Both the position numbers and the translations under genes were made by a program. DNA of 23,305 nucleotides from a virus. This document shows, piece by piece, positions 1 to 13,567 of the stretch (positions within the stretch are counted from its first letter, which is position 1; every line of letters begins with the position of its first letter). Below the pieces are notes generated by a model. That model searched no databases. It was given only the letters and a program-made list of their open reading frames with translations, and was not told the origin of the DNA. The stretch is from IMG/VR virus record IMGVR_UViG_3300044633_000899, positions 1-23,305 of that record; one strand, written 5' to 3'.

Positions 1-1739
1 GTATTGGTCAAACCCCAGAAGAGTTAAATTACCAATACTATAGAAATCTAATATTAAATTCGGCTTACTTATTCAAGTCAAAAGGAACCCGTAAATCTAT
101 TGAAATATTATTACGATTAATTGGTGCACCAGAAATGTTAGTTGAATTTAATGAATACATTTATATTGCTGACCAAAAGATAAATTTAAATGATTTTGAA
201 AAACAATATCAGTTAATAACTGGTGGTACCTATAACCAAGAATTACCGGTGTTAGATACCACTGATATCTTCTCAATTATGGGAACACAATATACAGGGT
301 TTACAACACAAACAATATCACAAAATGTTGATACCGTATTAGAAGATTACCCAATTGATGATCTTGGTTATCCAGCAATGCCCCAACAAAGTGATTCGTT
401 TTTCTATCAAATCGGTGGTGGTTGGTTTGAGTCAACACCGCAGCACAGAATGCCCGAAAAGGTAGATGTAACAAATAGTGTATTTACTGGTGAGAATCCA
501 ACATTCCAAACGACATTACTACCTTTTAATTATGGTGAACAGTACCTACAAAGATACCGACAATTTCCATATATGAATTTAGGTTTTAGGTTAAGAAAGG
601 TTATTGACAATAAAAAAAGTTGGACAGACGAAGAAGACACTTTAAGAAGAAGTTTTGATGGGAATTTTAATGCGTATTATGAGGTTGGTGATGAAAATTT
701 AACAATTAACGTTAAAAACGTTGACATACATATGAATCCAGCACAAGGTTTGGTTTATGACGTGTATACAATGTCCAGAGCGTATAATTACCCAATACCA
801 AACGAGGGTTTGAATTATGTTAAACCAACATATTGTGATCCGACACCAAATAGTCAATACCCAAAAAGAGGTGGGATTGACTGGACAGAAATAAATCCTA
901 AACCAAAACAAAAGACGTTTTTTGAATTTGCACAAACATTTTGGCGAAATATGATAAACGTTAGAAATAGACAATACATAACAGATGGTAAAACTGGGGG
1001 TTACCCAACTTTACAATCAATATATTGGAAATATTTAGAATCAGATTCGGCGATTAATATACCAAACGACAATTTCACGTATCAAACAATGATTAATTAC
1101 GTGCATGGCCTTGGTGATTATTGGATTCGGTTAATTGAACAAATGGTTCCAGCAACAACAATATGGAATACGGGTGTTAAGTATGAGAACTCAATTTTCC
1201 ACAGACAAAAATTTGTTTGGAGAAGACAATCTGGTTGTCAGATTATCCCAGTACCGTGTAAACCGTGTTCATTAGTCAGTCAACTATTTGTGTATGATTG
1301 TCCAATCCAAGCCGTAGATTGTTCATTATATCCTTGGGGTTCTGACCCAACAGTTAATTCATTTGGTGTTGTTTTAAGTTCGGTGGTTAATAAGTATTTA
1401 TTAAATAATGGTTATGACCCAACAAATGATTGTGTTTTAAATTCAATTGAATCAACTTGGTATTTGGATGTTAGTGTTAACGGTGATACATTAGTATCAC
1501 AAGAATTTTTCACTGGTTTTGGATACACATTAAGTGGTACTAGTTACCCAACAACAATTGAATGGCTTAACGCAGTAAACAACATAAATTCTGAACTACA
1601 AATTTTTGGTTTGAGTGTTATAATTAACGATGTTGATGAAACAATAACGGTATATAATAATAATTGTATACCACTAAGTACTCAAAATCAATTTGAATTT
1701 AATGTGGGTATAAACTTTGATATAACGTGTAATAATTAA
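1..1739 (+). CDS. Large virion structural protein, 5'-truncated by the window
   Basis: The frame is open from the first bases (codons begin at position 3), so the first internal ATG at 135 is not the true start and at least 578 residues are present. The upstream part reads as a conserved-looking segment (YLFKSKGTRKSIEILLRLIG). The middle is rich in aromatic residues and resembles large tail or baseplate-associated proteins of Bacteroidota phages (FFEFAQTFWRNM, then QMVPATTIWNTG and FHRQKFVWRRQ). The last ~105 residues, after a Cys-rich joint (CQIIPVPCKPCS), form a separate module related to one inside the next gene. The stop overlaps the next start (TAATG), indicating translational coupling. 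A virion role is inferred from size, composition and neighbours; the exact position in the particle is unknown. Confidence 0.7.
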   Translation, partial: IGQTPEELNYQYYRNLILNSAYLFKSKGTRKSIEILLRLIGAPEMLVEFNEYIYIADQKINLNDFEKQYQLITGGTYNQELPVLDTTDIFSIMGTQYTGFTTQTISQNVDTVLEDYPIDDLGYPAMPQQSDSFFYQIGGGWFESTPQHRMPEKVDVTNSVFTGENPTFQTTLLPFNYGEQYLQRYRQFPYMNLGFRLRKVIDNKKSWTDEEDTLRRSFDGNFNAYYEVGDENLTINVKNVDIHMNPAQGLVYDVYTMSRAYNYPIPNEGLNYVKPTYCDPTPNSQYPKRGGIDWTEINPKPKQKTFFEFAQTFWRNMINVRNRQYITDGKTGGYPTLQSIYWKYLESDSAINIPNDNFTYQTMINYVHGLGDYWIRLIEQMVPATTIWNTGVKYENSIFHRQKFVWRRQSGCQIIPVPCKPCSLVSQLFVYDCPIQAVDCSLYPWGSDPTVNSFGVVLSSVVNKYLLNNGYDPTNDCVLNSIESTWYLDVSVNGDTLVSQEFFTGFGYTLSGTSYPTTIEWLNAVNNINSELQIFGLSVIINDVDETITVYNNNCIPLSTQNQFEFNVGINFDITCNN

Positions 1740-4105
1740 TGTCAATAATAATAAATAACTATTCGGTAACTGGCGACTGCTCAAACCTTGGTGTTGGTGC
1801 TGTGTATTTTAATATAACTGGAGATAGTCCAACTTGGGCTGTTAGCGAAATAACAACAAGTGGTTTATTACCAACATCGGCATCAACGACAGATTATTAT
1901 GTGGATAATTTACCACCTGGTAATTACTTTGTTGAAATCATTGATTCTGGGATACCCACACAAGAAACCATAATATTACCAGTTTATATATCATCGGGAA
2001 CTTGTGTTTCAATAGAGACTGAAGGTACAAATTGTGGTATTACCAATGGATCTATAACAGCAACAACGGCAAACGTTTACGGACCAATTGATTTTTATTT
2101 ATTTGACATTAATGATAATTTAGTTAATTTAGCAATTGGTGTAACAAATGACTACGTGTTTAATAGTTTATCTGCCGACACATATTATGTTGTTGCAGAT
2201 GATGGTGGTGGTTGTACTGGTAGATCAGAATCTTGTATAATATACACCTCAACATCAATAACATACGGACTATACGTTGTAAACGACGCCAATTGTGTTT
2301 CAACGGCGGGAAGTGGTAAGATATTTGTAACAGGTTTAACAGGTAACCCACCATTCACGTATCTTTGGTCTAATGGTGAATTAACAAATCAAATTGAAAA
2401 TTTAATACCTGGAGCATACTCTGTAACAGTAACAGATAGTTTAGGTTGTTCACTAATACAAACCGCAATCGTTAATAATGTAAATCCAGTAACTTTTGGG
2501 TCATTTATAACAACACCACCAACTTGTTTTAGTAATGATGGTGAGATTGACGTGATTATAGTTGATGGTACAGCACCATATTATTATAGTGGTAGTAATG
2601 GTGATACAGTTATAACATATTCTCAAAATTACACATTTACTGGATTAAGTTCGGGTGGCTTCACCGTGTTTGTACAAGACGCTGGACTATGTAGTTTTAC
2701 ACAATCAACAACATTAATAACACCTAATAGTTTTTCTGTTGTAAGTGTCAACACAACTAACTCAAACTGTGGTAATAACGGACAGGTTGATGTTATAATA
2801 AATAGTGGTGGGGGTTTAGGTAGTTTTACATATTCGTTAACAAACTCAAGTGGTAATACGATATCTGATACAACACCATCAATAACATATTCATTCCCAA
2901 ACCTAAGTTCGGATACTTACACATTAACAATAACTGATGGTACTTGTACATATACGACAACCGTAACGATTAATAACGTAATATTATTCGGAATAAGTAC
3001 CTCAATAACAGGTACAACTTGTGGTTTAAATAACGGATCCGTACAAATTACCGCAACAACTGGGGGTACGTTACCATATACATACTCAATAAATGGGTTA
3101 ACACCATCTCAACAAACAATATTTAACAATTTAACATCAGGAAATTACATTGCAACGGTAACTGATTTTAATGGTTGTTCACAAACACAGAATTTTAGTA
3201 TTTCAGCATCAACAGGTGTGTTTTTTGATTTATCAACAACACAACCGATAACGGGTAATGATGGGGAAATTGATGTTTTATTATATAATGGTGAACCACC
3301 ATTTACCTACAATTGGAGTACAAATGTTGGATCACAAACAGGATTAGTTGTTACTGGATTAACAGCCGGAACATACACACTAGAGGTCATTGATGATAAT
3401 GGTTGTGCATACACTAAAAGTACCATATTAAACGGTACTAATAGAGTCTCAACGTACCAAAAATACACTATTTGTGATACTCAATTTGAAAACACTGATA
3501 TTATTGGTAAACGAGGCATCCAACAAATGTACAACGAAGGTTTTTATGATTTAACATTAGATGATGTTAATTGTGTTGTAAATTCAGCAAAATTTACTGC
3601 AGTCCTAAATGTTAACGATGTTGTAAAAAACATTGAATTTTACACATCAAATGGTTTAACAGATTTCCCAAGTGATGTTTTATGGGTTGAAACAATTGTT
3701 AATAACTTAAAAACTTTTGACGGTATAGGTGACGTTATTGTGGACTATACAACAAACACAATACAGATTTTCAACGCGTGTGATATTGTTGGTAGTACTT
3801 GTAACCCACAAATTATTAACACATTATCCGATGTGAAAGTGATTATCAATTTATTGATTGATTATGATATTTCTTGTGTGTCGTGTGATGGACCAACAAC
3901 CACAACAACAACAACCTGTTTATTTAATGAGTTTGAAATACAACTTGGTAGTCCTTGTACTTTTTACTTATATGATTGTGATGGAAGTATATTTGATACG
4001 ATTAGTTTTGTTAGTGGTGGAACATATACTATTTGTGCCGCGAGTTACGGACATGATATATGTGCTGTTAGTTTACCAATAATTCTTGGTCCTTGTAACC
4101 CATAA
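1739..4105 (+). CDS. SprB-like repeat adhesin, probable tail-tip or fibre protein
   Basis: The 788-residue protein has about seven tandem immunoglobulin-like repeats of the SprB type (roughly residues 12-90, 99-166, 186-240, 263-320, 344-404, 428-482, 503-560). Each has the pattern Cys...NGS/G-E-I...PP/PY-TY...W-SNG...L-G-Y-VTV-D-GC; the third (PPFTYLWSNG, AYSVTVTDSLGC) is the clearest. Residues ~605-712 form a module related to the C-terminus of the preceding gene. A poly-Thr linker (720-726) then leads to a ~60-residue Cys-containing end (YLYDCDG) that recurs in the minus-strand gene at 12073-13344. SprB repeats are known from the gliding adhesin of Flavobacterium johnsoniae. Here they probably build an extended surface-binding virion protein. 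The start overlaps the previous stop by one base. Confidence 0.7.
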   Translation: MSIIINNYSVTGDCSNLGVGAVYFNITGDSPTWAVSEITTSGLLPTSASTTDYYVDNLPPGNYFVEIIDSGIPTQETIILPVYISSGTCVSIETEGTNCGITNGSITATTANVYGPIDFYLFDINDNLVNLAIGVTNDYVFNSLSADTYYVVADDGGGCTGRSESCIIYTSTSITYGLYVVNDANCVSTAGSGKIFVTGLTGNPPFTYLWSNGELTNQIENLIPGAYSVTVTDSLGCSLIQTAIVNNVNPVTFGSFITTPPTCFSNDGEIDVIIVDGTAPYYYSGSNGDTVITYSQNYTFTGLSSGGFTVFVQDAGLCSFTQSTTLITPNSFSVVSVNTTNSNCGNNGQVDVIINSGGGLGSFTYSLTNSSGNTISDTTPSITYSFPNLSSDTYTLTITDGTCTYTTTVTINNVILFGISTSITGTTCGLNNGSVQITATTGGTLPYTYSINGLTPSQQTIFNNLTSGNYIATVTDFNGCSQTQNFSISASTGVFFDLSTTQPITGNDGEIDVLLYNGEPPFTYNWSTNVGSQTGLVVTGLTAGTYTLEVIDDNGCAYTKSTILNGTNRVSTYQKYTICDTQFENTDIIGKRGIQQMYNEGFYDLTLDDVNCVVNSAKFTAVLNVNDVVKNIEFYTSNGLTDFPSDVLWVETIVNNLKTFDGIGDVIVDYTTNTIQIFNACDIVGSTCNPQIINTLSDVKVIINLLIDYDISCVSCDGPTTTTTTTCLFNEFEIQLGSPCTFYLYDCDGSIFDTISFVSGGTYTICAASYGHDICAVSLPIILGPCNP
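3893..3916 (+). repeat. Poly-Thr triplet linker
   Basis: A run of ACA/ACC codons encodes seven consecutive Thr, joining the repeat-bearing body of the adhesin to its C-terminal Cys module. It is one of several such linkers in the structural genes, all placed at domain joints. Confidence 0.8.
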
Positions 4106-4106
4106 T

Positions 4107-4412
4107 ATGTCACAATTAATAATATCAAATATCACAGGAGTAACACTACCATATAACATTTATGGTTGTGATTACTATGGAAATAACTGTATCTTATTAG
4201 CAACAATAACAACATCAACAACACCGATAACAATAGAATTACCATCAATGTTTATAACGTATCCAGCGTTAACGGTTAAATTAGGTAATTGTATTAATTG
4301 TGATTATAGTGAGTTTATAACCGCAAGTTGTTTTGTACCCCAATCTAAAAACTTTCAAACGGGGGAAATATTCTTTTTTATGGATGGTACTGAATATACT
4401 TTCCAAACATAA
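4107..4412 (+). CDS. Small Cys-containing virion-associated protein (paralogue of 13346-13567)
   Basis: This 101-residue protein is taken from the ATG one base after the adhesin stop; an upstream TTG at 4086 is in frame but would overlap that gene. Its first ~70 residues align with the minus-strand protein at 13346-13567. Shared positions are an I-S/T-NI start, a P-Y/F...Y-CD core, an N/T-CI pair, an E-L/I-PS-M/V-F motif and a later TVK. A single small beta-rich domain is likely. It has an extra tail (from ~residue 75, FVPQSKNFQTG) that the paralogue lacks. No signal peptide or membrane segment is visible. Function is unknown. Position directly after the adhesin suggests an accessory tail protein or a chaperone for its neighbour. 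Confidence 0.65.
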   Translation: MSQLIISNITGVTLPYNIYGCDYYGNNCILLATITTSTTPITIELPSMFITYPALTVKLGNCINCDYSEFITASCFVPQSKNFQTGEIFFFMDGTEYTFQT

Positions 4413-4414
4413 AG

Positions 4415-4430
4415 TATTTATAAATAAAAA
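4415..4430 (+). promoter_or_regulatory. A/T-rich start region with TATTTATAAATA motif
   Basis: The 18-base gap before the fibre gene contains TATTTATA (4415-4422) overlapping TATAAATA (4419-4426), then an A-run to the ATG at 4431, with no Shine-Dalgarno sequence. TATTTATA also lies before 7013 and 8732, and TATTTATT before 13567 on the minus strand. It may be a late-promoter element or just the A-rich start context used by flavobacteria. TATAAATA is the T4 late -10 octamer, but its spacing here would give an almost leaderless transcript. Confidence 0.3.
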
Positions 4431-5978
4431 ATGGGATTTTTAACTAGTAGAACAATAGCACCAACAGTAACGACAAACGACCTCGTACACATCGTAATTA
4501 CTGGTGATACATCACAAGGAAATCCATCAGGATCATCATATAAAGCAACTATTGGTCAAATAGGTTTAGCAATTGGTACTGGAAACACGATAACAATTAG
4601 TGGGGGTACAGACATTTCAGTTACGGGATCACACCCAAATTTTGGTATTAGTTTTACAGGAACAACAGGTGGTGATTATTTACCATTAAGTGGTGGTACA
4701 GTAAGTGGGGAAACCATATTTACAAGTGGTATAACAGCAAATACAATATCCGCAACAACCATTGGTACTAGTGGTAACTGTGTTGATGATATCTACGTAT
4801 ATAATATACATTCCTGTTCACCATTAAATATAAACCCATTGAATGAAGGTAATATTTATTTCGGACAAACAAGTGGTATTACAATTGATGTTACAAATAA
4901 TAGACTTGGTATTAATAACCCAACACCAACATATCCGTTAGATATTTTAGGTAATGGTAATTCTGGTAGTTTTTATTATACACCATCAAGTGCTGGAGGT
5001 CTTACTTTTTTAAGTGGTACCACAACAACACCAACAGACTCAATTGTGAGGTACGGAGTATCAACACCATCGTATTTAACAAAACCAACAGCATCAATGA
5101 CATTTGGTATTAGAGGGTGGGGTGATTCAACATATAATGCGTATGGTAATAATGGTGATGGTTTTATACGAGCCTCGGTTGAAGTGAATGGATTGACGTT
5201 TATAAAAGCCCAAGGATCGGGAACAAGTGATTATATTCGTTTCTTTGCTGGATCAAACCCAACACTAACACCAAACTTGATGATAAATGGTACAGGAGCA
5301 ACGCAAGGGTTTGTCGGTATCAACACATCAACACCAAGTCAAAGGTTACACGTTAGTGGAAATACGTTAATTGATGGTAGTCTTACTGCAACAACGGCAA
5401 ACACCTCAACATTGGTGATAAACACAACACCAACAACAGATCCTACAAATAATAATGTTTTAGTGAGGGATGTGTCAACCGGTGTTGTTAAACAAAGAGA
5501 TATTACAAGTACTTTAAATAAAAATTACGCATCTTTTTATGATACTGGTGATCAAACAGGTCTTGCTAATGCTGTATTAACTATGTCGGCAAACACATCA
5601 GATTCTTGGAATACTGGAATTACTTTAAGTGCAAATACAAGATTTGTAATACAAAACCCTGGTGTTTATAGTTTAGCGTTTAGTGGTCAAATGGTAAAAA
5701 CTGGTGGTAATACTGCTACGCACGCACACATATGGCTTTACCAAAATGGTCTTGATGTACCAAATAGTGCTAGTCAGATTGGGTTTCCTTCAAATTCTGT
5801 ATATATTGTTTCTGCTTGGAATTTCTTTTTTAGTACTACAACACCAAACGAATATGTTGAATTAAAATGGGAAATAAATAGTAATGTAGATAACCAATTG
5901 TCATTAAAGCATCAACCAGCGACTGGAAATGTACCGGCAATCCCATCTCTTATTGTTACTATTAACCAAGTAAATTAA
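4431..5978 (+). CDS. Tail fibre-like protein with C1q/TNF-like C-terminal domain
   Basis: The 515-residue protein is rich in Gly, Thr, Ser and Asn. Residues 1-110 carry short beta repeats of the 'GGDYLPLSGGTVSG' type common in phage fibres. Residues ~155-170 and ~290-330 each contain a 'GIN...TP...L-HV/DI-SG' motif (GINTSTPSQRLHVSG), typical of trimeric fibre shafts that often precede an intramolecular chaperone or knob. Residues ~364-515 look like a jelly-roll tip of the C1q/TNF/BclA type (FVIQNPGVYSLAFSGQM, HIWLYQNG, YVELKWEIN). This suggests a trimeric fibre whose tip binds a host surface ligand. It stands alone between short A/T-rich gaps. I see no peptidase-type chaperone motif. Confidence 0.7.
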   Translation: MGFLTSRTIAPTVTTNDLVHIVITGDTSQGNPSGSSYKATIGQIGLAIGTGNTITISGGTDISVTGSHPNFGISFTGTTGGDYLPLSGGTVSGETIFTSGITANTISATTIGTSGNCVDDIYVYNIHSCSPLNINPLNEGNIYFGQTSGITIDVTNNRLGINNPTPTYPLDILGNGNSGSFYYTPSSAGGLTFLSGTTTTPTDSIVRYGVSTPSYLTKPTASMTFGIRGWGDSTYNAYGNNGDGFIRASVEVNGLTFIKAQGSGTSDYIRFFAGSNPTLTPNLMINGTGATQGFVGINTSTPSQRLHVSGNTLIDGSLTATTANTSTLVINTTPTTDPTNNNVLVRDVSTGVVKQRDITSTLNKNYASFYDTGDQTGLANAVLTMSANTSDSWNTGITLSANTRFVIQNPGVYSLAFSGQMVKTGGNTATHAHIWLYQNGLDVPNSASQIGFPSNSVYIVSAWNFFFSTTTPNEYVELKWEINSNVDNQLSLKHQPATGNVPAIPSLIVTINQVN

Positions 5979-6012: not shown

Positions 6013-6990
6013 ATGAAAGATATTGTATTTGTAACCGCACAACCAGATGTCCCATATTTTCATTGGCAAGTTAAATTATACACACATAATTTTATGTCTT
6101 TAGGTATTAACCCAAACGATATCCACGTCGTCTTTTCAACATTAGGTAATAATGTATTGTCTGAGGGTGCAAATTCTTTAAAAGAACTAGGTATAAATGT
6201 ACATACATATAAAGATGAACGAACAAATAAAACATACATACCAAGTATAAAACCATACCTAATATCAAAATGGTTAGAACAATATCCACAGTTTGGTAAT
6301 TGTTTTTTCTTACACGACGCCGATATTATCTTTAGAGAATTACCAAATTTTGATGAACTATTAAACGATAATGTTTCTTATTTATCAGATACTATTGGTT
6401 ATATTGGATATGAATACATTATGGGTTGTTGTAAACGATATGAAAAACAACACCCAACAACCAACCAAGGACAGTTACTACAAGAAATGTGTGATATAAT
6501 TGGTATTGATGTTAACACAGTTAAGGATAATCAATTAAATTCTGGTGGTGGACAATACATTATAAAAAATACCGATCACAAATTATGGGAAAAGATCTAC
6601 AATGATTCAACACCTTTATATTCACAAATGTTAGACTATCAAAAACGATACCCAATAAATCCTGGTCAAATACAATTTTGGACGGCAGAAATGTGGTCTG
6701 TATTGTGGAACTTATGGTTATATGGGATTGAAACTAAAATTACAAAAGAATTAGATTTTTCTTGGGCGACAGATAGTATTGACGTATATAATAAAAAACC
6801 AATTTTACATATGGCTGGTATTACTGATAATCTAAAATTGACAAAATTCTATAAAGGTGAATATATTAATGTTAACCCAATACAAAAACTAAAAGAAAAC
6901 CCAAACCATTTTGATTATGTAGATAAAAATAATGCAACAATAAAATATATTGATGTTATGAAATCATACACCCAAAAAACGAATAATTGA
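6013..6990 (+). CDS. GT-A-type glycosyltransferase-like protein
   Basis: The 325-residue protein opens with a beta-alpha unit (IVFVTAQPDVPYFHWQV) and has a DxD-like metal/nucleotide-sugar motif at Asp102-Ala-Asp104 in the context FFLHDADIIF. An acceptor-loop-like QLNSGGGQ lies at 174-181, QFWTAEMW at 221-228 and HMAG at 266-269. These match the layout of GT-A glycosyltransferases found in large phages. No signal peptide or membrane helix is visible, so it should act in the cytoplasm. It sits between virion genes with Thr/Ser-rich linkers, so one inference is glycosylation of tail proteins; modification of DNA bases or host glycans is also possible. The donor and acceptor cannot be told from sequence. 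Confidence 0.65.
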   Translation: MKDIVFVTAQPDVPYFHWQVKLYTHNFMSLGINPNDIHVVFSTLGNNVLSEGANSLKELGINVHTYKDERTNKTYIPSIKPYLISKWLEQYPQFGNCFFLHDADIIFRELPNFDELLNDNVSYLSDTIGYIGYEYIMGCCKRYEKQHPTTNQGQLLQEMCDIIGIDVNTVKDNQLNSGGGQYIIKNTDHKLWEKIYNDSTPLYSQMLDYQKRYPINPGQIQFWTAEMWSVLWNLWLYGIETKITKELDFSWATDSIDVYNKKPILHMAGITDNLKLTKFYKGEYINVNPIQKLKENPNHFDYVDKNNATIKYIDVMKSYTQKTNN

Positions 6991-7012: not shown

Positions 7013-8695
7013 ATGGCCGAAGAAATATTTAGTTGTGATCAATGTCTTAACGTATCTTTTATAATTACCGCCATTGATTTTGTAAAACCTGTTGATTTAC
7101 AGATGTCTTACGATGGGATTAATGGTTTCTATAGTGGTGAAACACTTGGTGATATATATACTATTTATAACGACAATGGTGTTTGGATTATTGAAGATGA
7201 ACTTGTTATTTTAGCAACTGGTTCTACTTGTGATTGTCCATACAATTGTAATTGGGTTACAAATCCTAATTTAGATGTAACAATTAATGACCTTACAGTG
7301 GTTTCGTGTACACAAACTACAACAACCACATTTTATCCGTTTACAACCACCACAACAACACTACAACCAACACCAATCCAACCAACAAATGAATGTGACG
7401 TTATCACGATATTCCCAATGAATGTTATTTGTGAATCAACAAACCCAACATTTACAAACACGTTTGACGGTATTGCGACAATCTTAATTACTGGTGGGAC
7501 ACCACCTTATGAGATTTTATGGGATAATGGTGGTGTTGGTCCTTTTGTTACAAATTTAGGTGTTGGTGAATACGTTGCAACGATTAGTGATTATTATAAC
7601 GATTTTATAATTACAAGTACTTGTGTTTTAACAGCACAAACACCTGCGACAACAACTACAACATCAACAACTACATTACCTCAGTTTGGTAATCTTTGTT
7701 TTATTGTTTCTGGATATTTTGGTAGACTATATCAAACGCAATACATTAGTTTTGATTTTGATGGTTATATTAACGACAAACCTAGTTGGTTATCTGACGA
7801 TGGAGAATATTTCTTATATTGGAATACTGGTACAACATCACAATGGACTGTTTCTGGTTATACAGGTGGTGCAATTTTTAACCAAAACCCAAGTGTACCA
7901 CCAATTACTGGGTGGCAACATTTAGGTAAACAAAGTTTAGAAATTAATGTTTATGAAGGTGATTGTGTTTTTATCAACCCAATAACATTCCAGATTGGAA
8001 AAAATAACGCAACATGTATTAATGACGGATCCATTATTATTAATGCGAGTGGTGGAATACCACCATATGAATATTCATTAAATGGTGGGACTAATTTCGT
8101 AACAACACCAATAATAAATAACTTATCACCTGGTTCATACATTGTTTTAGTTAAGGATTCATTAAATAATATCTCAACAACACAAAACGTATTAATATCA
8201 CAAAATGTGACAAATACTGTGTATACATTAACATTAAATAAAGTTGGAAACAATATTACCATTGTGGTATCACCAACATTACCTATTGGAACATCAATAT
8301 CATTTGACGTTGTATATGAAAGTGTGTTTACTGTGGCACCATCACCAACTTCAGCTAGTTTTAATGGAAATTTAAATTTATTATTAAATGGTAGTCCAAT
8401 TATATCAAATTCACCAATAATAACGAATACAACAACATTTAATCCGTGTAATAATGGTAGTCTTTATACAACCAACAATAAACTAATTTGGACAAATGTT
8501 GTAATGGTAAATACATCAACACTTACAGGTTCTTTAACCGGTCAAATAACACCAAATACACCTTTACCATCTTGTTATTCTGCAAACAAAAGCAATTCCG
8601 TAACACTAAATAATGTAACAATAAGTGGTTGTCAGTGTTGTTCGGTTGTAATTACACAATTAGTGGTAGAAACAATATCACAAGGGTTTAATTAA
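7013..8695 (+). CDS. Modular virion protein with Thr linkers and SprB-like repeats
   Basis: The 560-residue protein is built of modules. An N-terminal Cys-containing domain (1-80, ending CDCPYNC) is followed by Thr-rich linkers (102-117), an SprB-like unit (~140-205, GGTPPYEILWDNGG) and a second Thr linker (212-221). Next is a Trp-rich domain (~225-310) with the pattern YFLYWN...W-TVSG...PPITGWQHLG, then another SprB-like unit (~325-395, GGIPPYEYSLNGG) and a Cys-rich C-terminus (SGCQCCS). The same style of modules appears in 1739-4105 and 12073-13344, so this is probably another adhesin or tail-tip component. No catalytic motif or signal peptide is visible. It lies between the glycosyltransferase and the tail/baseplate-like gene. 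Confidence 0.6.
   Translation: MAEEIFSCDQCLNVSFIITAIDFVKPVDLQMSYDGINGFYSGETLGDIYTIYNDNGVWIIEDELVILATGSTCDCPYNCNWVTNPNLDVTINDLTVVSCTQTTTTTFYPFTTTTTTLQPTPIQPTNECDVITIFPMNVICESTNPTFTNTFDGIATILITGGTPPYEILWDNGGVGPFVTNLGVGEYVATISDYYNDFIITSTCVLTAQTPATTTTTSTTTLPQFGNLCFIVSGYFGRLYQTQYISFDFDGYINDKPSWLSDDGEYFLYWNTGTTSQWTVSGYTGGAIFNQNPSVPPITGWQHLGKQSLEINVYEGDCVFINPITFQIGKNNATCINDGSIIINASGGIPPYEYSLNGGTNFVTTPIINNLSPGSYIVLVKDSLNNISTTQNVLISQNVTNTVYTLTLNKVGNNITIVVSPTLPIGTSISFDVVYESVFTVAPSPTSASFNGNLNLLLNGSPIISNSPIITNTTTFNPCNNGSLYTTNNKLIWTNVVMVNTSTLTGSLTGQITPNTPLPSCYSANKSNSVTLNNVTISGCQCCSVVITQLVVETISQGFN
7311..7372 (+). repeat. Thr-rich triplet linker
   Basis: Two runs of ACA/ACC/ACT codons (five and six Thr) separated by an aromatic-containing spacer end the N-terminal module and precede the first SprB-like unit. 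Confidence 0.75.
7647..7679 (+). repeat. Thr-rich triplet linker
   Basis: Codons for TTTTTSTTT separate the first SprB-like unit from the Trp-rich module. Together with the linker at 7311-7372 it brackets a ~95-residue cassette. Confidence 0.75.
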
Positions 8696-8731: not shown

Positions 8732-11362
8732 ATGGCATACATACTTAAAAATACTTCAGGACTTGTAAACACAAGGGTTACCGATACCGGTAGACAAAAA
8801 TTATCACAAGGTAATTTTAAAATCGCATACTTCCAAGTTGGTGATAGTGAAGTGTCTTACGATAAAACACCGTTAAATTACAATCAACCGAATAGTTATG
8901 TGTTAGAACCACCATTTAATACACAAAACACAAGTGGTGTTCCACAATCAAACAAACAAAGTATTAAATACCCTTATTATGTTGATGGTAACGAAGGAAA
9001 CACATATGGAATACCTTATATGGATTCTGTTGTTGATCCTGTTTATAATAGAGCACCATTAAGAGGTTTTTTTAGTGGTAACACGTCAGCAACAACAATA
9101 GATTGGAAAGTTTTAACAAATAATAAGTATGTGATTTCCGCGAATTTTGTTATTAATTTATCAATGTTAAACGGAACAAATAAGATTAATTTAATTTACG
9201 ACCCTTGTAATGTACAAAATTATAAAGAACCATCTGTTGGTGATATAGTAACAATATATTACGATGGTAAAGGTGGGTATAATTGCGGTTGTACTAATTA
9301 CCCCCCATTACCAACACCATCGCCTAGTTCAACGATTGTTATAACACCAACACCTAGTTTATCTGCAACAAACCCGTGTGCTTCACCAACCCCAACCCCA
9401 ACACCTAGTGCGACACCTTGTTTAACACCAACACCTAGTTCACAATGTCCGTTACCATCGGATCCTAATTGTGAGATGAATATCGCGTCTTGTTATCCGA
9501 TTTTAACTTATAAGATTGTTTCGGTTTGTGAAAATGAAATAACATTAGACAGAAAATTACCATATTTTGGTAATATTTTAGGTGAATGTTTTGGTAGAGT
9601 GGTTATTTACCCACCAAATATGACATCAATATATGATAGTATAACACCACGACCACACTGGTCAGATGATGTTATTAATTTTGAATCAATATGTGATACC
9701 GATCAATTTGATGTTAAGGTTTGGAATATGAATATTCCTTGGACAGAAAACCCGGCTGGGTTAAAAACAAACACATATGAGGGTTATGATAAGTTTGGTT
9801 CAATTGATTATATTGGTACAAAAGAATATTTTGGGTACAACTCAAGTGTTGGTCAAACAGATACAGACTACGTGTATTATTATAATTCATTTGATGAAAT
9901 CGTTGAGGTAAAACCAGAAGAACAAAAGGCTATTGCAATTATTCACTATACTAACCAAACAATTGATTTTTTCTATGGTGAAAAATTCGCTTTAGAACCG
10001 TACAACCCAACAAATATTGATGACACAACAGGTCAAGCAAGAAATTTTAAAATACATATTCCTTGGTTAATGTGGCATAAAAATCCAGAGTGTTGTTATG
10101 GTGAAACATTTTGGGTTGACCCACCAAATTTTGACGATTTAGATTTATTTCAAGTGCAATATATCAAATCAACTAAAAACGATGGGATGAACCAACCAGG
10201 TATTAGATACTACCACTTATGGGATACACATAGAAATTCAAATGGTATACCAAGTCGTATTGGTAAAGTTTTCCCAGACAGTAAAATGATTATTATTGAC
10301 GACGAAGAAATAATTGCTGCGATGTCATATAAATCAAATAGAAACTGGACATTACCAGCACCACAAGTTTCATTAATAACACCAAATACATGTGGTATTG
10401 AATCAACAACGACTGAAGGCGTTTTAACGGGTAGTAATGAAACAATGTATGTCACATATAGACTATCAAATGATGTTGATTTTACAAATTCACTACATTC
10501 AAATTATTATTCAAAAATAACTGGAAATAATAATATTTGTAACCCTGACACACCAAAAAATGTTGCGATCAGATTTGGTGCTGAGTTTAATTGTTTAACA
10601 CAACCATACACACCAACAACAACGACAACAACTTTTAACCCGACAACAACGACAACAACAATAATACCTATTGAAAATTGTTATATTTTAACTGAAGATT
10701 TAAACATCCTTACAACAGAATCTGGTCAAGGACTACTTTGGTGTAACACCATAAATGACGTTGAGACATTACAAGATAGTGTTTATTATCCTATTGGTTA
10801 TTTAACGACAACAACAACACAATGTCCCGTTGTTTGTGATGTACCAAGTGGTTTTTACGCTACAAATTTGGAAATATTAGTACAAAAAGTAACAACAGGT
10901 CAACGACCAAACGCTAGTGATTGGAAAATAATTGATTTCACAAACAATATTAGTGGTCAAACAATTAATGGGTATTTAACACAAGAATCATTAACGGGAA
11001 CAACATTTGTTGTCACAAAGGAATTATATGATTCAGCACCGTACTATAACCTAAATGATTATATTGATTTGACACCATTAGGTAATACAAGTCCAAAATT
11101 AAATTTTGGTGATGAGTATTATTTTTATGGGGGTGTTGAAACTGACATTCAGGCGACAATATATGAAATGAACTATAAAGTTAATTTAAATTTTACTGAG
11201 TTCCAGAATACAACAAACCCAACTTGGACAAAAGGTACTAAATCGTATATCACAGAAATAGCACTATTGGATGAAAACAAAGATATTATGGTTATGTCTA
11301 AATTACAGTCACCAGTATTAAGACAAGGAATCCAACAGTTTGTTGTTAAATTAGACTTCTAA
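8732..11362 (+). CDS. Large tail/baseplate-like structural protein interrupted by low-complexity linkers
   Basis: The 876-residue protein has a well-formed N-terminal segment (LVNTRVTDTGRQKLSQGNF, then AYFQVGDSEVSYD). Its C-terminus contains SYITEIALLDENKDIMVMSKL, which resembles the 'TEIGLYDENGDLVAI.K' strand motif of phage tail-fibre/baseplate proteins. Two features break this body. A Pro-Thr-Ser-rich stretch with Cys punctuation occupies residues ~191-242. Thr tracts at 627-643 and 692-696 bracket a ~45-residue Cys-containing insert (ENCYILTEDL...). The core between them is aromatic and acidic (PHWSDDVINFES, NFKIHIPWLMWHKNPECC). I infer a conserved tail protein that has acquired surface-exposed insertions. 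The PTPS segment contains the 19-bp inverted repeat shared with 12073-13344. Confidence 0.65.
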   Translation: MAYILKNTSGLVNTRVTDTGRQKLSQGNFKIAYFQVGDSEVSYDKTPLNYNQPNSYVLEPPFNTQNTSGVPQSNKQSIKYPYYVDGNEGNTYGIPYMDSVVDPVYNRAPLRGFFSGNTSATTIDWKVLTNNKYVISANFVINLSMLNGTNKINLIYDPCNVQNYKEPSVGDIVTIYYDGKGGYNCGCTNYPPLPTPSPSSTIVITPTPSLSATNPCASPTPTPTPSATPCLTPTPSSQCPLPSDPNCEMNIASCYPILTYKIVSVCENEITLDRKLPYFGNILGECFGRVVIYPPNMTSIYDSITPRPHWSDDVINFESICDTDQFDVKVWNMNIPWTENPAGLKTNTYEGYDKFGSIDYIGTKEYFGYNSSVGQTDTDYVYYYNSFDEIVEVKPEEQKAIAIIHYTNQTIDFFYGEKFALEPYNPTNIDDTTGQARNFKIHIPWLMWHKNPECCYGETFWVDPPNFDDLDLFQVQYIKSTKNDGMNQPGIRYYHLWDTHRNSNGIPSRIGKVFPDSKMIIIDDEEIIAAMSYKSNRNWTLPAPQVSLITPNTCGIESTTTEGVLTGSNETMYVTYRLSNDVDFTNSLHSNYYSKITGNNNICNPDTPKNVAIRFGAEFNCLTQPYTPTTTTTTFNPTTTTTTIIPIENCYILTEDLNILTTESGQGLLWCNTINDVETLQDSVYYPIGYLTTTTTQCPVVCDVPSGFYATNLEILVQKVTTGQRPNASDWKIIDFTNNISGQTINGYLTQESLTGTTFVVTKELYDSAPYYNLNDYIDLTPLGNTSPKLNFGDEYYFYGGVETDIQATIYEMNYKVNLNFTEFQNTTNPTWTKGTKSYITEIALLDENKDIMVMSKLQSPVLRQGIQQFVVKLDF
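9302..9460 (+). repeat. PTPS-rich low-complexity insertion
   Basis: Repeated ACACCAACACCTAGT-type units encode TPTPS motifs punctuated by Cys inside a tail protein gene. Related units occur on the opposite strand at 12271-12872. Confidence 0.75.
9344..9362 (+). repeat. 19-bp inverted repeat, left arm
   Basis: ACACCAACACCTAGTTTAT here is found perfectly reverse-complemented at 12264-12282. Both copies encode TPTPSL in the same codon phase of their own genes. Confidence 0.85.
10612..10662 (+). repeat. Double poly-Thr linker
   Basis: Two runs of six Thr, encoded by ACA/ACG/ACT codons and separated by FNP, mark the left border of a short Cys-containing insert in the tail protein. Confidence 0.75.
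10805..10822 (+). repeat. Poly-Thr linker
   Basis: A run of five Thr codons marks the right border of the insert that begins after the linker at 10612-10662. Confidence 0.7.
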
Positions 11363-12044: not shown

Positions 12045-12074
12045 AAATATCGTCTTTTTAGACGATATTTTTTT
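12045..12074 (+). terminator. Rho-independent-type terminator between convergent genes
   Basis: A perfect 10-bp stem (AAATATCGTC / GACGATATTT) with a six-base loop (TTTTTA) is followed by a T-run on the + strand. It ends the resolvase transcript and abuts the minus-strand stop at 12073-12075. The minus strand lacks an equally long T-run, so it should work mainly for + strand transcription. Confidence 0.8.
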
Positions 12075-13344
12075 ATATTATGCAATTACCAATTTGTGTT
12101 GCAATGAATACTGATGTTGACGTTTGTATTTCTGATGTACAAATCTTAACACTTTTACCAGGACTAACCAAAACACTTTGTGTCTGACCGTAACAGTCTT
12201 TATAATCATAAACATAAACACTAAAAGGATCTGAGTTCACAATTAAAAAATCATAACACGGTAATAAACTAGGTGTTGGTGTCATTGTTGGTGTAACACT
12301 AGGTGTTGGTGTTGGTGTTTGACTTGGGATTGGAACACAGGTTAAACAAGACCCTGCACTTTCAAAACCAATGTTTTGCAATATCGTAACATTATCAACA
12401 CCACTAATGTTCTCAACTAAACCATCATAAACAACACATACTGAATTATCATTAATGTTTGCACGATAAACATAACCTAATGTTGGTAAATTACCAAATT
12501 CATCTAATATAACACTAGATGTATGATATAAGAAACCATTATTACAATCTTTAAATCTTTTACTATTTGCACATCGGATAAAATCGTCAACCGTATTAAA
12601 TGTAACAATACCATCAAAATTACAAGGTCGTGTAATGTCAGGTGTTGAACTAGGTGTCATCGTTGGTGTTGGACTAGGAGTTGGTGTAATCGTTATCGCA
12701 CTTACTGTTAATGAAATACCACCACAAGGGTTTGTGGGTGTTACCGTAGGTGTTGGTGTCATTGTTGGTGTTACACTAGGTGTTGGCGTCGGTGTTGGAC
12801 TTACAGCACAATTAAAAACCGCGTTAAAATCAATATTACAAACAGACGTTGGTGATGGTGTGGGTGATGGACAAGAACCGGCGGTAAAAAAACTATCACA
12901 TAAATCAGGACAAGAACTAACACACGGAGATTTACCAAATAACAAACAACTACCATCCAAGACAGTTGATAAACACCAAGAATTTGATGTTATTGATGAA
13001 AAAATGTAATAAGTTGGTGAAGTGTTACCAGTATAATAAATCGTACCATTATGAAGCGACGGAGCAAGTTCGTAAGTACCATCATAAGTATTAGTGTTTG
13101 AAATACAATATTCCGTATCACAATTAGGACAAGATGTAATATCTGTAATCCCTAAAGGTAGTGTTTTATATATTATCTGATCAACACCATTAGAATAGGT
13201 TGCACTATCAGCCTCAATAGTACATGCAACGTCATAATATAAACCTTCACCTAAAGTAATAGAATCACCATAAAGAGTTAATGTTGGTGTTATAAAACAC
13301 GAAGTATCACCAGAAGAAAATAAACCTAAATTATTACAAGCCAT
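12073..13344 (-). CDS. PTPS-linker modular protein, probable virion adhesin
   Basis: The 423-residue protein consists of Cys-containing modules joined by Pro-Thr-rich linkers. Residues ~20-75 include GLYYDVACTIEADSATYSNG; ~76-160 include NSWCLSTVLDGSCLLFGKSPC; ~240-336 are one further domain. Linkers lie at ~159-166, 182-205, 219-235 and 341-362. The last ~60 residues (VYVYDYKDCYGQ, VKIC) match the end module of the SprB-like adhesin at 1739-4105. Start and direction are supported by the one-base gap to the upstream minus-strand gene (TAA-T-ATG). This is the only minus-strand gene pair seen. It probably encodes a tail or surface-recognition protein. No enzyme motif or signal peptide is visible. 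Confidence 0.65.
   Translation of the reverse strand: MACNNLGLFSSGDTSCFITPTLTLYGDSITLGEGLYYDVACTIEADSATYSNGVDQIIYKTLPLGITDITSCPNCDTEYCISNTNTYDGTYELAPSLHNGTIYYTGNTSPTYYIFSSITSNSWCLSTVLDGSCLLFGKSPCVSSCPDLCDSFFTAGSCPSPTPSPTSVCNIDFNAVFNCAVSPTPTPTPSVTPTMTPTPTVTPTNPCGGISLTVSAITITPTPSPTPTMTPSSTPDITRPCNFDGIVTFNTVDDFIRCANSKRFKDCNNGFLYHTSSVILDEFGNLPTLGYVYRANINDNSVCVVYDGLVENISGVDNVTILQNIGFESAGSCLTCVPIPSQTPTPTPSVTPTMTPTPSLLPCYDFLIVNSDPFSVYVYDYKDCYGQTQSVLVSPGKSVKICTSEIQTSTSVFIATQIGNCII
12264..12282 (-). repeat. 19-bp inverted repeat, right arm
   Basis: This is the exact reverse complement of 9344-9362 and lies in the last PTPS linker of the minus-strand gene, just before its C-terminal Cys module. Confidence 0.85.
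12271..12324 (-). repeat. 54-bp direct repeat, copy A
   Basis: It encodes a TPTPTPSVTPTMTPTP-type linker and matches 12748-12801 at 50 of 54 bases by eye. The two copies are 477 bases apart, a whole number of codons. Confidence 0.8.
12748..12801 (-). repeat. 54-bp direct repeat, copy B
   Basis: This is the second copy of the linker repeat at 12271-12324. Recombination between the copies would remove 159 codons in frame. Confidence 0.8.
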
Positions 13345-13345
13345 A

Positions 13346-13567
13346 TTATACGGTTAAAGTGTCATTTATAGTACAGTTATTACTGTCAACAACTTTAACT
13401 GTGAACGTACTTAACGAACTAAAAACAGAAGGAATTTCAAAAGCATAGGGAAAATCACCGCTGGTTACCGTGTTAACGTAAATACAAGTCGTAACACCTG
13501 AATCACATACGTATACATCAAAGGGTGATGCACCACCAATGTTTGTTATTGTTATATTTGTTGGCAT
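13346..13567 (-). CDS. Small Cys-containing protein, paralogue of 4107-4412
   Basis: This 73-residue protein is nearly co-linear with the first ~70 residues of the + strand protein at 4107-4412. It shares the NI-G start, a PF...Y-CD core, the TCI pair, the EIPS-F motif and TVKV near the end, but lacks that protein's C-terminal tail. It is the first gene of a two-gene minus-strand unit, one base ahead of the PTPS-linker gene. The region upstream is A/T rich (TATTTATT 7 bases before the ATG). Function is unknown; being paired with an adhesin-like gene in both cassettes suggests a partner role. Confidence 0.6.
   Translation of the reverse strand: MPTNITITNIGGASPFDVYVCDSGVTTCIYVNTVTSGDFPYAFEIPSVFSSLSTFTVKVVDSNNCTINDTLTV

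Follow-up and report, generated by a model that had tools for sequence, protein, structure and literature searches.

Why would a phage carry, among its tail genes, the repeat of a bacterial gliding adhesin? The question is raised by an open reading frame (ORF) at 1739–4105 of a 23,305-nt stretch of viral DNA (the window), which is positions 1–23,305 of the 296,330-bp IMG/VR record IMGVR_UViG_3300044633_000899. An initial annotation had counted about seven SprB-type repeats in this ORF and two more units in ORF 7013–8695, and had suggested that the phage copies or competes with the moving adhesin of its host. The repeats are borne out here; the copying is not. The protein is best explained, with a probability of about 0.62, as a conserved immunoglobulin (Ig)-like baseplate arm or fibre of a jumbo myovirus infecting Bacteroidota, in which the repeats would act as a spacer and the tips would be exchangeable.

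SprB repeats in the two proteins

The two proteins concerned, lengths being in amino acids (aa), are:

1739–4105, plus strand: SprB-repeat protein, 788 aa; single open frame; PF13573 E 2.7e-19
7013–8695, plus strand: second SprB protein, 560 aa, with Thr-rich linkers; PF13573 E 8.9e-11

The first ORF matches the Pfam family SprB (PF13573) in several stretches, scoring 69 bits where the cut-off is 28. No PKD match was obtained at E≤0.1, and every other Pfam family stayed under its cut-off, so that a PKD or generic Ig identity of the repeats is rejected. The match extends to 34 of 36 homologues of the protein (E≤0.01). The Pfam model spans only half a repeat unit. A repeat profile of 77 columns, one per residue, was drawn from units 1–6 of 18 phage homologues, and it places seven units at residues 8–75, 88–168, 178–247, 253–327, 331–413, 419–489 and 492–565. 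The first, which lay outside the training set, is the weakest (independent E-value, i-E, 7.6e-6); the second to seventh reach 5e-19 or better, values that are inflated because these units of the window were themselves used for training. Numbered from 0, and with their grouping in a tree of repeat units, they are:

1739–2002, plus strand: repeat unit 0, divergent, residues 1–88; i-E 7.6e-6; own clade 100/99
2003–2260, plus strand: SprB repeat 1, residues 89–174; i-E 3.8e-21; own clade 100/99
2261–2488, plus strand: SprB repeat 2, residues 175–250; i-E 4e-19; own clade 98/87
2489–2728, plus strand: SprB repeat 3, residues 251–330; best Pfam match of the protein, 34.4 bits, above cut-off; own clade 99/99
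2729–2977, plus strand: SprB repeat 4, residues 331–413; i-E 4.9e-19; clade 99/93 save one long-branch row of bacterial type
2978–3208, plus strand: SprB repeat 5, residues 414–490; 30 bits, above the Pfam cut-off; own clade 96/74
3209–3436, plus strand: SprB repeat 6, residues 491–566; i-E 5.5e-26; own clade 92/83; sister of repeat 2

In the second protein the profile finds two units, at residues 142–194 and 329–383 (about 7436–7594 and 7997–8161), and four related contigs have SprB matches at the corresponding place. All PF13573 matches of the 296-kb record fall in these two ORFs.

Structure prediction, a check that the initial annotation had proposed, models the repeats of the first protein as a string of seven beta-sandwich units, with predicted local distance difference test scores (pLDDT) mostly 72–93. 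The predicted template modelling score (pTM) of 0.32 means that the relative placement of the units is not fixed. The solved structure matching best by E-value is GhpA of Aureispira (PDB 9fly, 9flp, 9flw; E 2e-18), likewise a string of Ig-like modules in a surface appendage of the Bacteroidota. GhpA differs in being a bacterial surface protein of thousands of residues, and it gave no match in the sequence search; the resemblance is at the level of fold only.

An old array under constraint

The gene follows directly on that of a tail protein, U, of 1005 aa:

1–1739, plus strand: 3′ part of U, upstream tail protein; start at record position 294878, the frame continuing over the join of the record ends

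Relatives of the SprB protein are encoded by at least 562 viral contigs and homologues of U by 458. We read 160 loci from scans with U and the SprB protein, some contigs having been fetched twice. U lies upstream of the SprB gene in 160 of 160, within 60 nt in 159 and within 528 nt in the remaining one. The commonest junction is a SprB start codon overlapping the U stop, as in the window, where the overlap is one base (TAATG). Four loci have U without the SprB core, and in these the contig ends there.

A tree of 123 repeat units gathers each of positions 0, 1, 2, 3, 5 and 6 into a single group (bootstrap 92–100), and position 4 likewise apart from one long-branch row. Repeats 2 and 6 are sisters, joined at 100/99, in a tree whose few columns make relations between positions weak. 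The ratio of nonsynonymous to synonymous substitution rates (dN/dS) was taken over the core in four pairs and came to 0.14, 0.09, 0.18 and 0.20, with single units reaching 0.36. Position clades and low dN/dS together mean that the array was complete before the sampled phages diverged, and that it has since been under constraint. The seven-unit core is fixed in number, position-orthologous and under purifying selection. A recent capture of a host adhesin gene is rejected: no locus with the end of U on its contig lacks the gene, and the repeat positions arose before the sampled group spread.

A platform domain in common with U

Behind the repeats lies a domain, here called the platform, that has a counterpart at the end of U:

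3506–3886, plus strand: conserved platform domain of the SprB protein, residues 590–716; alpha/beta model; conserved in all homologues
1425–1730, plus strand: C-terminal domain of U, homologous to the platform

Comparison of the two by hhalign gives a probability of 97% (E 1.2e-10), and by hmmsearch an E-value of 2.2e-4. The predicted order of elements, H-E-E-H-E-E-E, is the same in both models, and no third copy of the domain was found in the genome. In the SprB protein the platform is modelled with pLDDT mostly 75–91, dipping at residues 681–700, and the linkers are disordered. U itself has a mean column identity of 74% in an alignment of 17 rows. It matched no record in the annotated phage collection, so that the group has no isolate there, and a search of 396 Bacteroidota genomes for a prophage or host hint found no U.

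The overlapping genes and the domain common with U would also suit a permanent part of the baseplate, a wedge brace or a decoration, that makes no contact with the host and whose variable C-terminus is accessory. Weak profile similarity to phage neck-whisker and decoration proteins points the same way. However, the modelled string of units is not compact, and the exchangeable Thr/Pro-linked ends described below are typical of exposed receptor-binding parts; we regard this explanation as improbable.

Linker and exchangeable tips

The end of the protein is of a different kind:

3887–3919, plus strand: Thr-rich linker (GPTTTTTTT), site of tip exchange; pLDDT <50 at residues 716–731
3920–4105, plus strand: variable tip, 61 aa, low model confidence; a longer, unlike extension stands here in the relative L008

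Over 3,915 nt the window and L008 share 99% identity; they are unlike over nt 3915–4057 and 97% identical thereafter, and the difference begins inside the Thr linker. Other pairs with cores 98–100% identical likewise end in dissimilar sequence. The core keeps a constant length, ending at residue 711–744 of the frame in 91 complete distinct proteins; 37 of these (41%) have no tip, 6 the linker only and 48 a module, and the ends reach 789 aa. The modules fall into about 12 groups, the largest perhaps inflated by linker sequence. A diversity-generating retroelement is rejected as the source of this variation, since the record has no match to RVT_1. A gene at record positions 216809–218107 (L016) is homologous to the tips of other members, with up to 43% identity, and is a possible source of tips within the genome.

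Two antisense ORFs, 12073–13344 and 13346–13567 on the minus strand, interrupt the plus-strand row. They are rich in Cys and in Thr/Pro, and their motif YVYDYKDC/PFDVYVCD resembles the tip of the SprB protein and ORF 4086–4412.

The place of the exchanged part bears on what the repeats do. They could themselves be the binding modules, making reversible, multiple contacts with surface polysaccharides of Bacteroidota while the tip adds specificity. Ig-like modules of phage tails have been linked to the binding of hosts and of carbohydrates (PMC6949934), all members retain the repeats whether or not they have a tip, and the units are individually conserved. Nevertheless, strong purifying selection and a fixed number of units would not be expected of a surface that contacts a receptor under host escape, the part that varies and is exchanged sits behind the repeats, and the one published BACON structure shows linkers rather than binders (PMC6949934). 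Binding by the repeats is unlikely on this balance, if a serious candidate. With a variable, swapped part behind fixed repeats, a spacer fits better than a mimic of the host adhesin.

Position in a baseplate gene row

An overlap of 174 bp, identical but for one mismatch, joins the record ends, and a gene reads open across the join. Unwrapped, the row starts outside the window with gp25 (PF04965, E 8e-12) and gp6/Baseplate_J (PF04865, E 1.2e-5), both reached across the join. Two small ORFs follow, then proteins of 1812, 579, 278, 391 and 301 aa, then U, the SprB protein, a small ORF and a fibre-like protein of 515 aa; a phrog_4417 protein, the second SprB protein and a protein of 876 aa end the row. 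A tail sheath gene elsewhere (record 247987–251310; PF17482, E 1.1e-8) implies a contractile tail. With gp25 and Baseplate_J in the same row and a sheath gene in the record, the SprB gene is treated as a baseplate or tail-fibre gene, which agrees with the virion gene row assumed by the initial annotation, as far as position can tell.

The other genes at this end of the row are:

4431–5978, plus strand: tail-fibre-like protein, 515 aa, by position and sequence
8732–11362, plus strand: large protein, 876 aa, last of the row; conserved in L008–L011; putatively structural by position

For the 515-aa protein no Pfam match was found, and its PHROG match is at chance level (0.03). The phrog_4417 protein (window 6013–6990; E 5.4e-73) stands between the fibre genes, has the same place in relatives and looks glycosyltransferase-like by eye.

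Host and export signals

Over 184 genes no Shine-Dalgarno signal is seen (2%; control stretch, 3%), and the start context is A-rich at −3 and at −11 to −14. An A-rich start context without Shine-Dalgarno has been described for Flavobacterium (PMC6847099). Of 118 Bacteroidota genomes, 25 have SprB repeats (PF13573); of 14 control genomes, none does. Counts of the Bacteroidota −33/−7 promoter and of the T4-late promoter are alike on both strands. The host phylum is likely Bacteroidota; no direct host link emerged.

The SprB protein starts MSIIINNYSVTGDC. Its N-terminus, MSIIINNYSVTGDCSNL, shows no hydrophobic signal and no signal peptide, as judged by eye and not by a prediction program. The sorting domain TIGR04131 of the type IX secretion system (T9SS) is absent from it, while a bacterial control (L107) is positive; TIGR04183 scores 21.5 bits, under its cut-off of 23, and at residues 46–78 instead of the C-terminus.

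These signals bear on two further explanations. That the array mimics SprB so as to ride on the gliding machinery of the host, or compete with it, draws on the common repeat family and on a proposal that receptors of Flavobacterium phages are parts of that machinery (PMC7345892). The lack of an export signal of either kind, however, goes against it, as does an array that is divergent, fixed and grouped by position, and not with bacterial repeats save loosely at unit 5. Such mimicry is very improbable, and engagement of the gliding machinery is unsupported. Taken more broadly, as a functional copy of the adhesin surface that binds the polysaccharides of SprB, or that couples the particle to moving adhesins so that the virion would be carried along the gliding cell ahead of injection, the idea is still distinctly improbable. 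The other explanation is a protein made during infection for the host surface or for secretion, outside the particle. An SprB protein in a 642-kb phage record, described below, does carry a T9SS type-B sorting domain. The start of the window protein, the absence of a sorting domain above cut-off and its place in a baseplate row next to U make this explanation scarcely credible.

A proposed baseplate arm with exchangeable tips

We propose instead that the protein serves as a baseplate arm or fibre. Its seven SprB-type Ig-like modules would form a fixed, elongated and hinged string, ending in the platform domain that is common to the adjacent U. A disordered Thr/Pro-rich linker would join a tip to the platform in many relatives, this phage included, and recombination at the linker would allow tips to be gained, lost and exchanged. 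The repeats would chiefly be a spacer, holding the host-contacting platform and tip off the baseplate. In this putative orientation of the arm, the tips would bind receptors.

Several points count against this proposal. The presence of the protein in the virion is inferred from gene position. The model of U is poor (pLDDT 45.6) and usable for the C-terminal domain only, which leaves an anchoring role of U putative. Template modelling (TM) scores to single structures, by query length, are mostly 0.11–0.23, low because the string bends, and among PDB chains none stood out as clearly related to the repeats by sequence. The tip is lacking in many relatives and is thus not required for function. 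Finally, the repeats are not more conserved than the platform domain, and they may or may not share in the binding.

Receptors of uncultured Bacteroidota phages are largely unknown, and a constant core with tips exchanged at a linker would give a defined place at which host range may be read in such phages. It would also mean that an adhesin repeat of host type has become a fixed baseplate arm throughout a large group of environmental phages.

Comparison with known systems

The repeats are of the same family, with about 70–80 residues per unit, as those of the SprB-type gliding or T9SS adhesins of Bacteroidota, such as SprB of Flavobacterium and, in this analysis, L107, and the profile of phage units recognises the bacterial repeats singly. 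Unlike the phage array, L107 combines a signal-like N-terminus with a type-B sorting domain (TIGR04131). Repeats in bacterial genomes come in runs of equal score, whereas the phage array consists of seven fixed, divergent units in a baseplate row. With the same profile, about 14, 14 and 9 repeats were counted in two bacterial proteins and one protein of the 642-kb phage record.

That record, from an uncultured phage (LR756502.1), encodes at 514381–519387 (L012:13822–18828) a 1669-aa protein with about 14 SprB repeats, a signal-like N-terminus and the type-B sorting domain TIGR04131, much like a gliding adhesin. By eye its gene neighbours include topoisomerase-like genes, and no tail-protein neighbour was recognised. 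The protein is probably exported by the host. LR756502 is rejected as a close relative, being the carrier of a T9SS-sorted protein in a different context.

A closer parallel is crAssphage, in which BACON, a surface domain of Bacteroidota, was built into a tail protein as a stable tandem array (PMC6949934). Both cases have a Bacteroidota-typical Ig-like domain, a tandem array, a tail-region protein and position-specific clades. The window protein differs in its domain family, its myovirus baseplate row, the platform domain in common with an upstream protein, the exchangeable tips borne on a linker and the number of units, constant across the phage family. No BACON family occurs among the Pfam matches of the window protein or its homologues. 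The crAssphage case would thus be extended to a second surface-protein domain of Bacteroidota and to a different tail architecture.

The best viral structural match, A0A6J5LD72, already bears the name 'SprB repeat [uncultured Caudovirales phage]'. It is similar to the window protein over its full length (34% identity, 714 aa, E 2.8e-58), in fold as well as in sequence. For it and A0A6J5LDA4 there is only this name in the database; the open-licence papers searched gave no account of their gene position, architecture or function, though one may have appeared in other literature.

Other features of the record

Membership in the freshwater bS21 phages (PMC9723584) is rejected, since the record has no match to the S21 family PF01165 and control genomes were positive. 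Across 135 upstream regions of the record, the sequence TATAAATA was counted 14 times in the sense and 28 times in the antisense direction, against an expectation of 4; one copy stands at window position 4419, immediately 5′ of ORF 4431. Three tandem related genes at record 24348–26946 (L019) begin MNVLSLFDGLSCGQIALNR and are C5 cytosine methyltransferase-like. Paralogues of about 148 aa that begin MKIIITENQYKLIKEN are numerous, at record 238754–242671 and elsewhere, and short RLTESDLTRIVKRVIKE leaders are found on many proteins of the record.

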